A stretch of 64,000 nucleotides of DNA from Halovivax limisalsi (lineage in GTDB: Archaea; Halobacteriota; Halobacteria; Halobacteriales; Natrialbaceae): NCBI RefSeq assembly GCF_023093535.1, contig NZ_CP095757.1:3596001-3660000 (forward strand). The letters are read 5' to 3'. Below the pieces are notes generated by a model that had not been told where the DNA came from, made no database searches, and worked only from the letters and a program-made list of their open reading frames with translations. The number at the start of each line of letters is the position of its first letter. Positions within the stretch are counted from its first letter, which is position 1. This document shows, piece by piece, positions 8,678 to 12,281 of this stretch. The translations under genes and the position numbers were made by a program.

Positions 8678-9931
8678 GTGCGTCTGGAGATTCGCCCGCG
8701 CGTCGCACTCCTGTTGCTGCTCGGCGTCCTCGTACTGACGGTCTCGGGGTCGATCGCCGGCTCGAATCTCGACGCGGAATCCGGACGGACCGAAATCGAA
8801 ACCGAATCCCTGGAGGACGGCTCCGAGGTCTGGCCGTACACGAGCCGAACGACCTCGACGGACGGGCGGACGCTCGCGATCAACATCGTCGTCTACGGCG
8901 ACGCGGACGCCACGGAACGATTCCTTCGCGAGCAGACACTCGGCGACTGGGAGGAGGTCGACGAGGACGAAACGCACGTCGGCACCGAGGCGGAATCCGT
9001 CGCCGCGAGCAACGAGTCGACGATCGCCTGGGGGAGCGCCGCCGGCGCCGTTCGCTACGCCTACCTCGACCCGGCAGACGGCGGGGCCCGCTGGGTCACC
9101 GAATCCTACCAGCTCAAGGACGGGACCTACCTCGGCGATCGCCAGCACATTCGCGCCTACACCGACCCCGTCGGCGGCGACTGGACGGTGATGCAGGCCC
9201 ACCGCGAGCACTGGGACTGGTTCCAGCTTCGCCACTCCGTCCACACCGTCAAGGAATCGCAGGCCTACGTCGAATCGGAGTTCATCGACAGCTGGTACGT
9301 CGAATCGCTGAGTCGCGAGTACGTCGGGAACGACCGCGGCGCCGATTCGGACGGCTGGACGACGTTCATCTCGCTTCGCGACGGCGTCATCCCCGCGCTA
9401 CTCGGCCTCGTCCTCATCGGCTCGATCGAGGTCGGGAGTTGGCGGAACCGGACCGAGGACCTCCGCGCCTGGTGGAACGACGAGGCGGTCCAGACGGCCG
9501 TCAACGCGATGTTGCTCGCCACCGTCATCGTCTCGTTCTTCGCGTTCGTCCGCATCGGCGCGGTCGAAGCCGAGCTGGCGTTCCCGGAGACGAGTCCGAA
9601 GGTCATCGTGGCCGTCTTCTATCCCCTGCTCGTCCTCGGTCTCCCGATCGCCACCTACCTCGGCGCTCGCCACCTCGAACGCATTCCGGCCTTTACCGCC
9701 GCGGCGCTCGGCTTCGTCGTCGCGATGTTCCTCGATTACACCACCGTCGGCGTCGTCACCCTCTCGCTCGCCACCGTCGTCCACCACATCAGCCTCGCGA
9801 CCGCGCTCGGCTTCGTCGCCGCCGGCGCCTCCGAAACCGCCCGCTCGCCCGAGAACGACCCCGGCCACGTCCGCACCGGCGTCCTCCTCTGGCTCGTCAC
9901 CGTGGGCATCCCGCTGCTGCAGTTCCTGTAA
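8678..9931 (+). CDS. membrane protein, possibly LssY-C-like ectodomain with four C-terminal helices
   Basis: This 417-residue protein starts at GTG 8678; no better ATG exists before the signal-like helix (residues 7-27). The region about 60-230 is hydrophilic and contains LAINIVVYGDADATERFL and two more segments that vaguely resemble the LssY C-terminal domain; that link is tentative. Residues about 240-417 hold six hydrophobic segments. No catalytic motif is clear. A hairpin array starts right after its stop codon. Confidence 0.6.
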   Translation: MRLEIRPRVALLLLLGVLVLTVSGSIAGSNLDAESGRTEIETESLEDGSEVWPYTSRTTSTDGRTLAINIVVYGDADATERFLREQTLGDWEEVDEDETHVGTEAESVAASNESTIAWGSAAGAVRYAYLDPADGGARWVTESYQLKDGTYLGDRQHIRAYTDPVGGDWTVMQAHREHWDWFQLRHSVHTVKESQAYVESEFIDSWYVESLSREYVGNDRGADSDGWTTFISLRDGVIPALLGLVLIGSIEVGSWRNRTEDLRAWWNDEAVQTAVNAMLLATVIVSFFAFVRIGAVEAELAFPETSPKVIVAVFYPLLVLGLPIATYLGARHLERIPAFTAAALGFVVAMFLDYTTVGVVTLSLATVVHHISLATALGFVAAGASETARSPENDPGHVRTGVLLWLVTVGIPLLQFL

Positions 9932-9949
9932 ACCGAACTTGTTACGTCG

Positions 9950-10287
9950 TGCGAGAAAGCTTCGCTCTCTCGTGACTGAGCGAATCGAAGATTCGCGATG
10001 TCCGCGAAACCGCTGGTTTCGCTTGATCCCGAGAGAGCGCCCAGCGCTCTTTCGGACGACCTCGGGGTCGCTTCGCGACCCGCGTGCGGCGGAGCCGCCA
10101 CGGCATTCGGTTGCGGGCCCTTGGCCCGCAATCCGCTCGGCGCAAACACTTCGAGGGAAAAGCACCGGAAGAGCTCCGCTCTTCCAAGCCCTCACTCGCT
10201 TCGCTCGCGAGGAGGCCGCGAGCGCGAATGCGCTCGCGGTGAAACGGCGCGCGGTTCGCGCCGTATGCTCGCCCGCAGCCACCGGCT
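9950..10287. repeat. array of about 13 consecutive short inverted repeats
   Basis: Almost the whole segment folds as back-to-back hairpins with 4-10 bp stems and mostly 3-5 nt loops, often GAA, TTC, GCT or CTT. Clear examples are 9981-9995, 10004-10022, 10031-10053, 10057-10070, 10066-10080, 10111-10131 (9-bp stem), 10167-10185 (8 bp), 10216-10239 (10 bp) and 10244-10264 (8 bp). The units are not copies of one another. The block 10288-10437 that follows has no gene I can support. Together they make a 506-bp region without a coding sequence. Confidence 0.8.
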
Positions 10288-10437
10288 GGGTCGGTCGGTA
10301 CCCGTTTTGGGAATCCGTCTATCGGGACAGGTGCACCAGCATCACTACATTGAAACCTCGTCCAGCCGTCCTACTCGTGTCCGTTCGAGCCACGCAGTAC
10401 TGAAACGCACTGGCGACGGAATCCGTTCCACGAACCC

Positions 10438-10680
10438 CTAGTCCGGGCTCTCGTAGGGGCGTTCCCACGTGGGCGTGATCTGGGTGTAGAGGACGACGCC
10501 GGAGAAGAGGACGACGTACAGTAGCCAGGGAGGCTGGTCGAGCCACTCGAACGTCGCCGTCGCGGCGAAGATCCAGGCGATCAGGAGCGAGCTGTCGACG
10601 AGCATCCGGCCGCCGTTGTGCCGGAGGTACGCGAGGAGGCGCCGAGCGCGCGAGTCGATGACCGGTCGCTCGGAATCCAT
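10438..10680 (-). CDS. small two-helix membrane protein
   Basis: This 80-residue protein starts at the ATG at 10680 (MDSERPVIDS). A basic region (RARRLLAYLRHN) precedes two hydrophobic helices (about 29-46 and 51-67) and an acidic C-terminus. It resembles short haloarchaeal membrane proteins of unknown function. It sits immediately downstream of citrate synthase on the same strand, about 105 bp after that gene's own start-distal flank, and no partner is suggested by context. Confidence 0.55.
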   Translation of the reverse strand: MDSERPVIDSRARRLLAYLRHNGGRMLVDSSLLIAWIFAATATFEWLDQPPWLLYVVLFSGVVLYTQITPTWERPYESPD

Positions 10681-10785
10681 ACCGGGCGAACGGACCGGAC
10701 GACCATAGACCTGTTGTCGGGCACAGATGCGGCCTCGGGCCACGACGTGCCGAAGCGTTGAACAAGAAGGGGCGCTTCGGGCCGC

Positions 10786-11934
10786 CTACCGATCCTCGAT
10801 CGGGACGTACTCGCGGTCGTCCGGCCCGACGTAGCGTCCGCGCGGGCGGATGAGGCGATTGTCCTCCTGATACTCGAGGACGTGGGCGGACCAGCCGGCG
10901 GCGCGACTCATCGCGAAGATGGGCGTGTACATGTCGATCGGGATGCCGAGCTGGTAGTAGACCGAGCCGGAGTAGAAGTCGACGTTCGGGGCGATACCCT
11001 TCTCGACGAGGCCGACCTCGTCGGTGAGGTAGTCCTCGATCGCGGTCGTGATCTCGTACCAGGTGTCGTCGCCGGTTTCTGCCAGTTTCGCGCTGCGGGC
11101 CTTGAGGATCGTCGCTCGAGGGTCCGTCACGTTGTAGACGCGGTGACCGAAGCCGGGGATGCGCCGGCCCTCGTCGGTCGCCCGCTCGACCCACTCGCGC
11201 GGGTCGAGATCGCTCGATTCGATCTCGAAGAGGACCTCCATGACGTCCTGGTTGGCCCCGCCGTGGAGCGGGCCCGAGAGCGCGCCGATGCCGGCGGTGA
11301 CCGACGAGTAGAGGTCCGCCATCGTCGAGCCGACGACCATCGCGGTGAACGTCGAGGCGTTCAGCCCGTGGTCGGCGTGGAGGATCAGCGCCTGATCGAA
11401 CGTCTCCGCGGCGACGTCGTCGGGTGCCTCACCCGTGAGCATGTAGAGGAAATTCGCCGCGAGATCCAGATCCGGGTCGGGATCGATCGGCGCCTCGTCC
11501 TGGCGGACCCGGTCGTAGGCGGCCAGCAGCGTCGGGATCTTCGCGGTGATCCGCCTGGCCTTCCGGCGGGCGGCCTCGCGATCGTCGGCGGGCGCCTCGG
11601 CGTCGGGGTCGGTCGCCGAGAGCATCGAGACGGCGGTTCGCATCGCCGCCATCGGTGCCTCTTCGGCCGCGGCGAGCGCGCGAACCGTCTCGAGGATCGA
11701 CTCGTCGACGGCGCGCTCCGCGGCCATCGCGTCGGTAAACGAGTCCAGTGCCGCCCGGTCGGGCAGCTCGCCGTGCCAGAGCAGGTAGACGACCTCCTCG
11801 TAGCTCGCCCGTTCGGCCAGGTCGGCGATGTCGTAGCCGCGGTAGATCAATCGGCCGGCGTCGCCGTCGATCGAGCTCAGCTCGGATTCCGCGGCGAGTA
11901 CACCCTCCAGCCCTTTGGTGAGCTCGTCAGCCAT
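10786..11934 (-). CDS. gltA: citrate synthase
   Basis: This enzyme condenses oxaloacetate and acetyl-CoA to citrate at the entry to the citric acid cycle. The chosen ATG at 11934 gives 382 residues (MADELTKGLEGVL), the usual size for archaeal and Gram-positive type enzymes; an open extension upstream is basic and proline-rich and is rejected. Catalytic residues are visible: H224 in GPLHGGAN, H264 in GFGHRVY and D319 in NVDFYSG, with the substrate-binding His in LHADHGLNAST (H189). A TATA-like stretch lies about 25 nt upstream. It is a monocistronic-looking gene divergent from the SpoIIM-like gene. Confidence 0.95.
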   Translation of the reverse strand: MADELTKGLEGVLAAESELSSIDGDAGRLIYRGYDIADLAERASYEEVVYLLWHGELPDRAALDSFTDAMAAERAVDESILETVRALAAAEEAPMAAMRTAVSMLSATDPDAEAPADDREAARRKARRITAKIPTLLAAYDRVRQDEAPIDPDPDLDLAANFLYMLTGEAPDDVAAETFDQALILHADHGLNASTFTAMVVGSTMADLYSSVTAGIGALSGPLHGGANQDVMEVLFEIESSDLDPREWVERATDEGRRIPGFGHRVYNVTDPRATILKARSAKLAETGDDTWYEITTAIEDYLTDEVGLVEKGIAPNVDFYSGSVYYQLGIPIDMYTPIFAMSRAAGWSAHVLEYQEDNRLIRPRGRYVGPDDREYVPIEDR

Positions 11935-12281
11935 ACCCCGAACTTTCGCTCGGTACTGGAAAAGGGTTACCGTTTGCGAGACTACGGCGAGCGACGTCGA
12001 TCCGGGTTCCAGAGGCGGCGACAGTCCCGAATGCAGGAGCGGCGACGGCCCCGGCTTCGGGACCAGCGGCGAGTCGGGTTCCAGAGCGACCTGGATCCAC
12101 CCGGTCGTCACTCGCAGGGTGATCGACGCCGCCGACGCCAGGCGAGTCGAGCTCGGGAAACTCGGCCGGACGCGTCGGCGTTCGCTCGGACGGGCCAGTA
12201 CGGAATCGCGCTCGTCCGGAGACGTCGACGCCCGTTCGGACGGGTCGGTTCGTTTAACTGTCCAGTCGCGAAACGACCGCT
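11935..12281. other. 347-bp divergent promoter region
   Basis: This is the region between the starts of citrate synthase (minus) and the SpoIIM-like gene (plus). The only clear signals are an A/T-poor promoter next to 11934 and GTTTAACTG at 12252-12260, placed 25-30 nt before the ATG at 12282 as a haloarchaeal TATA element. The intervening GC-rich sequence is open in several frames but its translations are arginine- and proline-rich; I see no gene. Confidence 0.5.

Follow-up and report, generated by a model that had tools for sequence, protein, structure and literature searches.

A hairpin array behind a stop codon in Halovivax limisalsi and a dispersed family of palindromic 3'-end elements in haloarchaea

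Between two convergent genes in the Halovivax limisalsi genome lies a stretch of DNA that appears to consist of little other than short hairpins, and the question is what such a stretch is, how its stems are kept intact and what it might do for the genes on either side. It occupies positions 9950-10287 of the window, by which we mean the whole 64,000-nucleotide stretch analysed here (NCBI RefSeq assembly GCF_023093535.1, contig NZ_CP095757.1, positions 3,596,001 to 3,660,000). An earlier note on this DNA had described about 13 different hairpins with only their foldedness conserved, and had suggested a compound terminator, a transcript stabiliser, a recombination or replication barrier, or the relic of a DNA element.

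The array and its parts

Counting non-overlapping perfect stems of at least 7 bp with loops of 3-8 nt, we found eight in 9950-10287, as compared with a mean of 0.45 and a maximum of three in 500 dinucleotide shuffles of the same sequence; the next-densest 340-bp stretch within the window holds three such hairpins. The RNA folding z-score of the array is -8.2, and none of 100 shuffles folded equally well. The unusual density claimed earlier is thus borne out by both of the comparisons with shuffled sequence that had been proposed, stem number and folding energy. When imperfect stems are included there are 11 hairpins in 9952-10264 plus one or two weak ones, which makes the count of about 13 a fair one, and the majority of the loops are exactly 3 nt long (Table 1). 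No unit is repeated inside the array, and a CRISPR or a tandem satellite, which the earlier note had already set aside, can be rejected on that ground. Chance self-complementarity of intergenic DNA is an explanation that a GC-rich genome might invite; it is refuted by the shuffles, with their 0.45 stems against eight, and by the conservation of the modules across genomes described below.

Relatives set the true limits of the element at 9932, the first base after the upstream stop codon, and at about 10268. The window copy carries nearly all of the family modules, and no T5 or A5 tract occurs anywhere in 9932-10437. At the same site the gaps of four congeners are short and hold nothing comparable to the array, their flanks being too diverged to place the exact junction. 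The ~170 bp between the end of the element and the downstream gene (10269-10437) also have no counterpart in these short gaps. We consider it rather likely that in this array a haloarchaeal palindromic 3'-end element has been enlarged and has partly decayed. The earlier suggestion of a DNA-element relic would then be close to the mark, the array being one copy of a dispersed element family.

Table 1. Features of the window copy and its neighbouring genes (window coordinates).
Feature	Position	Strand	Remark
Upstream gene, 417 aa, without Pfam family	8678..9931	+	stop TAA 9929-9931; orthologue in 4 of 4 congeners
Whole hairpin element, head box ACCGAAC to end box GTATGC	9932..10268	+	ends set from copies at unrelated genes
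Head box ACCGAACTTGTTACG	9932..9946	+	family consensus ACCGAACTTTTTnCG; T5 interrupted here (TTGTT)
Hairpin 1 (module II-a), 9 bp, one A.C mismatch, loop TTC	9952..9972	+	
Hairpin 2 (II-b), 7 bp, loop GAA	9980..9996	+	
Hairpin 3 (II-c), 8 bp, loop GCT	10004..10022	+	
Hairpin 4 (II-d), 12 bp, one G.T, loop CCA	10029..10055	+	
Hairpin 5 (core I-a), 7 bp, loop TTC	10065..10081	+	
Hairpin 6 (I-b), 8 bp, bulge, loop GGA	10083..10102	+	
Hairpin 7 (I-c), 9 bp, loop CTT	10111..10131	+	
A-box GGCGCAAACACTTCGAGGGAAAAG	10139..10162	+	family consensus GGCGnAAAAACTTCGATGAAAAAG; both A5 tracts interrupted here
Tail hairpin 8, 8 bp, loop TCC	10167..10185	+	
Tail hairpin 9, imperfect	10190..10215	+	
Tail hairpin 10, 10 bp, loop GAAT	10216..10239	+	
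Tail hairpin 11, 8 bp, loop CGGTT	10244..10264	+	
End box GTATGC	10263..10268	+	GGATGC in many copies
Downstream convergent gene, 101 aa, without Pfam family	10438..10743	-	
Citrate synthase gene	10786-12111	-	beyond the 101-aa gene

A dispersed family with a fixed order of modules

Searched with the array, its own genome yields 15 matches (the array itself counted) and 23 of 41 genomes contain matching sequence; the matching pieces follow module borders, the modules recurring in the genome itself and in relatives at ~75-96% identity. The earlier statement that the units are not repeats thus holds within the array and fails beyond it, and the view that only foldedness is conserved was wrong, as linkers and end boxes keep their sequence from one genus to another. 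The module order, read from the folding of copies, is fixed: it starts with the head box ACCGAACTTTTTnCG and optional hairpins II-a to II-d, continues with TCGGGT, the core hairpin, optional I-b and I-c and the A-box GGCGnAAAAACTTCGATGAAAAAG, and closes with the tail hairpins and either GGATGC or GTATGC as end box. Short copies consist of the core plus the tail only. The core itself is a near-perfect palindrome, CGAA-C-TTTTT-n-stem-hairpin-stem-n-AAAAA-C-TTCG, followed by nnn-AAAAAG and optional hairpins.

A pattern for the head was found in 15 of 61 genomes and one for the A-box in 44 of 119, with no match to the reversed-pattern control in either case. Exact A-box matches fall mostly in Natrialbales (Natrinema, Haloterrigena, Natronococcus, Natronorubrum, Halobiforma and others), Natronomonas and Halohasta; scattered bacterial ones look like chance, and viral contigs contained none. 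A covariance model of the core gave 26 matches at E < 0.001 in the window genome, some of them being both strands of one palindrome. Within the class 156 of 194 genomes had a match to it, and outside the class none of 124 (from a phylum-wide draw of 148). In 20 matches from distant families the end boxes are lineage-specific and still pair: CGAAC-T5/A5-CTTCG, CCACC-T5/A5-CGTGG and GCACG-T5/A5-CGTGC. A search of Rfam with the window and 14 copies returned tRNAs and no described family, and our literature search found no description of the element family or its sequence; it is apparently undescribed so far.

Position at gene ends and putative termination

Copies of the element are dispersed, covary and are placed at stop codons, and this much we regard as established. 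With genes called by a codon-usage script made for this analysis, we could assign a gene context to 146 copies: 71 are flanked by convergent genes, 43 lie between tandem genes in the same sense as these, 22 between tandem genes in the opposite sense and 10 between divergent genes. The intergenic bases of the same loci split roughly evenly among gene arrangements; relative to them convergent pairs are favoured (p ~2e-9) and divergent pairs avoided (p ~6e-9), although the copies are related and neither these position counts nor the substitution counts given later are independent. The head lies -1 to 6 nt from the stop codon in 66 of the 114 copies with a same-strand upstream gene, while about two fifths do not abut it. 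About half of the distant-family matches also lie within a few nucleotides of a stop codon, and orthologous genes of several genera end in an element whose hairpin sequences differ. The stop codons at the 66 heads are TAA (43), TAG (20) and TGA (3), as against 250 TGA, 112 TAG and 101 TAA among the genes of these loci. The near absence of TGA (3/66) could be explained by strong expression of the host genes or by a stop codon that the element contributes.

In the family, T5 is present downstream of the stop codon and T5 tracts face both neighbouring genes; the sense strand of the head reads CGAACTTTTTC in many copies, and the antisense strand of the A-box reads CTTTTTCATCGAAGTTTTT. T5C is known to be effective in haloarchaea, having ended 95% of transcripts in a Haloferax volcanii reporter in which one hairpin ended 59% (PMC7237163). 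Given that the core is a palindrome, presents T5 to each neighbour, adjoins stop codons and prefers convergent pairs, we favor the possibility that it is a bidirectional terminator; for the family this is probable, and we hold it with moderate confidence on the strength of these sequence features. The core starts at or just after the stop codon with an end stem, T5, a short stem and a triloop hairpin, and its second half mirrors these with the partner stem, A5 and the partner end stem. Palindromy offers T5 to RNA polymerase arriving from either side, such that transcripts of the upstream gene and of an oppositely reading gene would most likely both end there. Extra hairpin cassettes occur between head and A-box, and also behind the A-box, in an order that is fixed.

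The compound terminator proposed earlier is therefore the best reading for the family, whereas the window copy is without T5. Because its T5 tracts are lost, terminator activity of the window copy itself is doubtful and we hold it with low confidence; having kept its hairpins, the copy is possibly a weak hairpin-only terminator, or a relic. If our reading of the family is true, haloarchaea would have a named 3'-end element for annotation throughout the class, and archaeal T-tract termination would be tied to a dispersed palindrome.

Upkeep of the hairpins and rival explanations

How the stems stay perfect can be approached from the substitutions they carry. Across 20 aligned cores (440 cells) there are 33 two-sided changes and no one-sided change, a level of covariation that none of 500 shuffles reached and that is lost with slid structures; a second subset of 17 cores has 11 two-sided and 5 one-sided changes. 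Invariance of the T5 and A5 columns comes partly from search patterns that contain T5/A5, and it is the other columns that are informative. Among 214 distinct hairpins (1944 stem pairs) we counted 10 G.U and 22 A.C pairs, as opposed to 24 G.U in 330 pairs of tRNA stems in the same loci, bearing in mind that A.C pairs are never drawn by the tRNA finder and that the hairpin finder tolerates no more than one mismatch, whatever its type. Selection at the RNA level should favour G.U, and the failure of G.U to exceed A.C makes such selection unlikely.

The loops point in the same direction. Where triloops with the same arms and similar flanks were compared, 38 were identical, 35 were reverse complements, 5 were complement-only and 2 reverse-only; these comparisons share sequences, and their weight rests on the contrast with the last two classes, which serve as controls. 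Loop use is strand-symmetric overall (GAA 22 and TTC 18; TCC 15 and GGA 14), in contrast to RNA loops, which are strongly asymmetric (36-fold for GNRA; PMC8794818). Two ~300-bp copies at unrelated genes of the window genome differ almost exclusively inside hairpins, and three of their differences are an exact loop inversion. Arm homogenisation and spacer inversion are known outcomes of template switching between the arms of a hairpin (PMC8604942), and the substitution pattern suggests that strand switching here uses one arm to correct its partner and turns loops around. Since changes are two-sided, G.U is not favoured and loop inversions are about as frequent as identity, we hold with good confidence that the hairpin pattern has probably been shaped at the DNA level and not by RNA-level selection.

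These data bear on whether the array could instead be a structured 3' UTR RNA that stabilises or regulates the mRNA. Strong folding, covariation and the sense orientation after stop codons are all consistent with such a role. The scarcity of G.U relative to tRNA, the strand symmetry of loops that are asymmetric in real RNA and the lack of an Rfam family argue against it; we disfavour this explanation as very improbable, and with it the transcript stabiliser of the earlier note. A REP/BIME-like DNA site, at which hairpins between convergent genes would recruit gyrase or another protein and thereby relieve positive supercoiling, is consistent with strand-symmetric conservation at the DNA level. 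REP/BIME elements occupy the same genomic niche as the haloarchaeal element, and together with REPINs of enterobacteria and pseudomonads they resemble it as many-copy, dispersed intergenic palindromes at 3' ends and between convergent pairs that form mosaics. The stems of the element are, however, freely replaced as long as pairing is kept, which leaves no binding motif beyond the linkers and end boxes, and such a role needs neither T5 tracts nor adjacency to stop codons; we regard a site of this kind as improbable. Those known systems differ in these same respects, and the window genome has no RAYT-type transposase.

That the element gets copied is shown by near-identical ~300-bp copies at unrelated genes, with homology that stops at the element ends, and many copies would be old since they persist at orthologous genes. 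The copying could be that of a non-autonomous mobile element, MITE- or REPIN-like, with a transposase acting on the hairpin ends and the position at stop codons reflecting merely where insertion is tolerated. Consistent with this idea are (i) the defined end boxes; (ii) terminal inverted repeats in the core (CGAAnT5/A5nTTCG), a MITE feature; (iii) an inverted near-identical pair in one region and (iv) the short gaps of the four congeners, where no comparable insert stands. Yet visual inspection of a few ends (those of the window copy and the L011/L012 pair) showed no target-site duplication, and PF01797 (Y1, RAYT-type transposase) had no match in the window genome while being present in 16 of 25 genomes searched, which led us to reject an IS200/RAYT association. 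The viral contigs, with no exact A-box match, make a virus-borne element not evident, copies are retained at the same orthologous genes across genera, and tolerance alone does not predict a placement exact to a few nucleotides that avoids TGA. We consider mobility of this sort unlikely, albeit with several features in its favour. Gene conversion between terminators is a possible means of copying. Taking our favoured reading to its full extent, we tentatively put forward, as somewhat short of probable, an undescribed class-wide element that would unite a core ending transcription in both directions, placement within a few nucleotides of stop codons, and hairpins both maintained and flipped at the DNA level, with a loop orientation near equilibrium in the family as a result.

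Several other known systems come close to this proposed element. It shares with the haloarchaeal T-stretch terminators of Haloferax volcanii (PMC7237163) a T5 shortly after the stop codon, T5C being present in many copies on the sense strand and, at the A-box, on the antisense strand; unlike in those terminators, its T5 lies in a palindrome arm with a matching A5 and would serve both directions, and it belongs to a dispersed conserved family with hairpin cassettes, of which the window copy is without T5. Hairpin-cluster intrinsic terminators (PMC8355165) likewise place several adjacent hairpins right after stop codons, but they are bacterial, act at the RNA level and are not a homologous repeat family, whereas the T tract of the element lies ahead of its hairpins, whose pairing has no RNA signature. 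Hairpins maintained by template switching, with spacer inversion (PMC8794818, PMC8604942), show the same instant two-sided stem changes, perfect arms and loop inversions such as GAA to TTC; in those cases the events, in rRNA or yeast genes, are rare and isolated, in contrast to a loop orientation near equilibrium throughout a family. T-tract terminators, REP-like palindromes and hairpin clusters are thus close, and none matches the element in all of the features tested. The element would offer a natural many-copy record of hairpin strand switching in which loop flips and arm corrections can be counted, and it bears on how hairpin arms can become perfectly paired and acquire compensatory changes without slow selection in two steps.

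Some copies stand in unusual surroundings. In the window genome, C1:120266-120331 and 121057-121122 (L020) are near-identical and ~0.7 kb apart; they are oppositely oriented and each follows the stop codon of an inward-pointing gene, which suggests a recent local duplication or conversion. At L213 (G080:C1:373902, 374061 and 374220) the A-boxes are spaced exactly 159 bp apart, in a tandem repeat whose unit joins an apparent gene 3' end to the element. Nine loci of Natrialbales (L090, L098, L104, L113, L114, L185, L191, L224 and L225) have longer flanks in common, TGAATACACAGCG-like upstream of the head and GCGGAGACCAGTGATGCATACATG-like after the tail; there the element is apparently embedded in a larger dispersed repeat and does not lie beside a stop codon.
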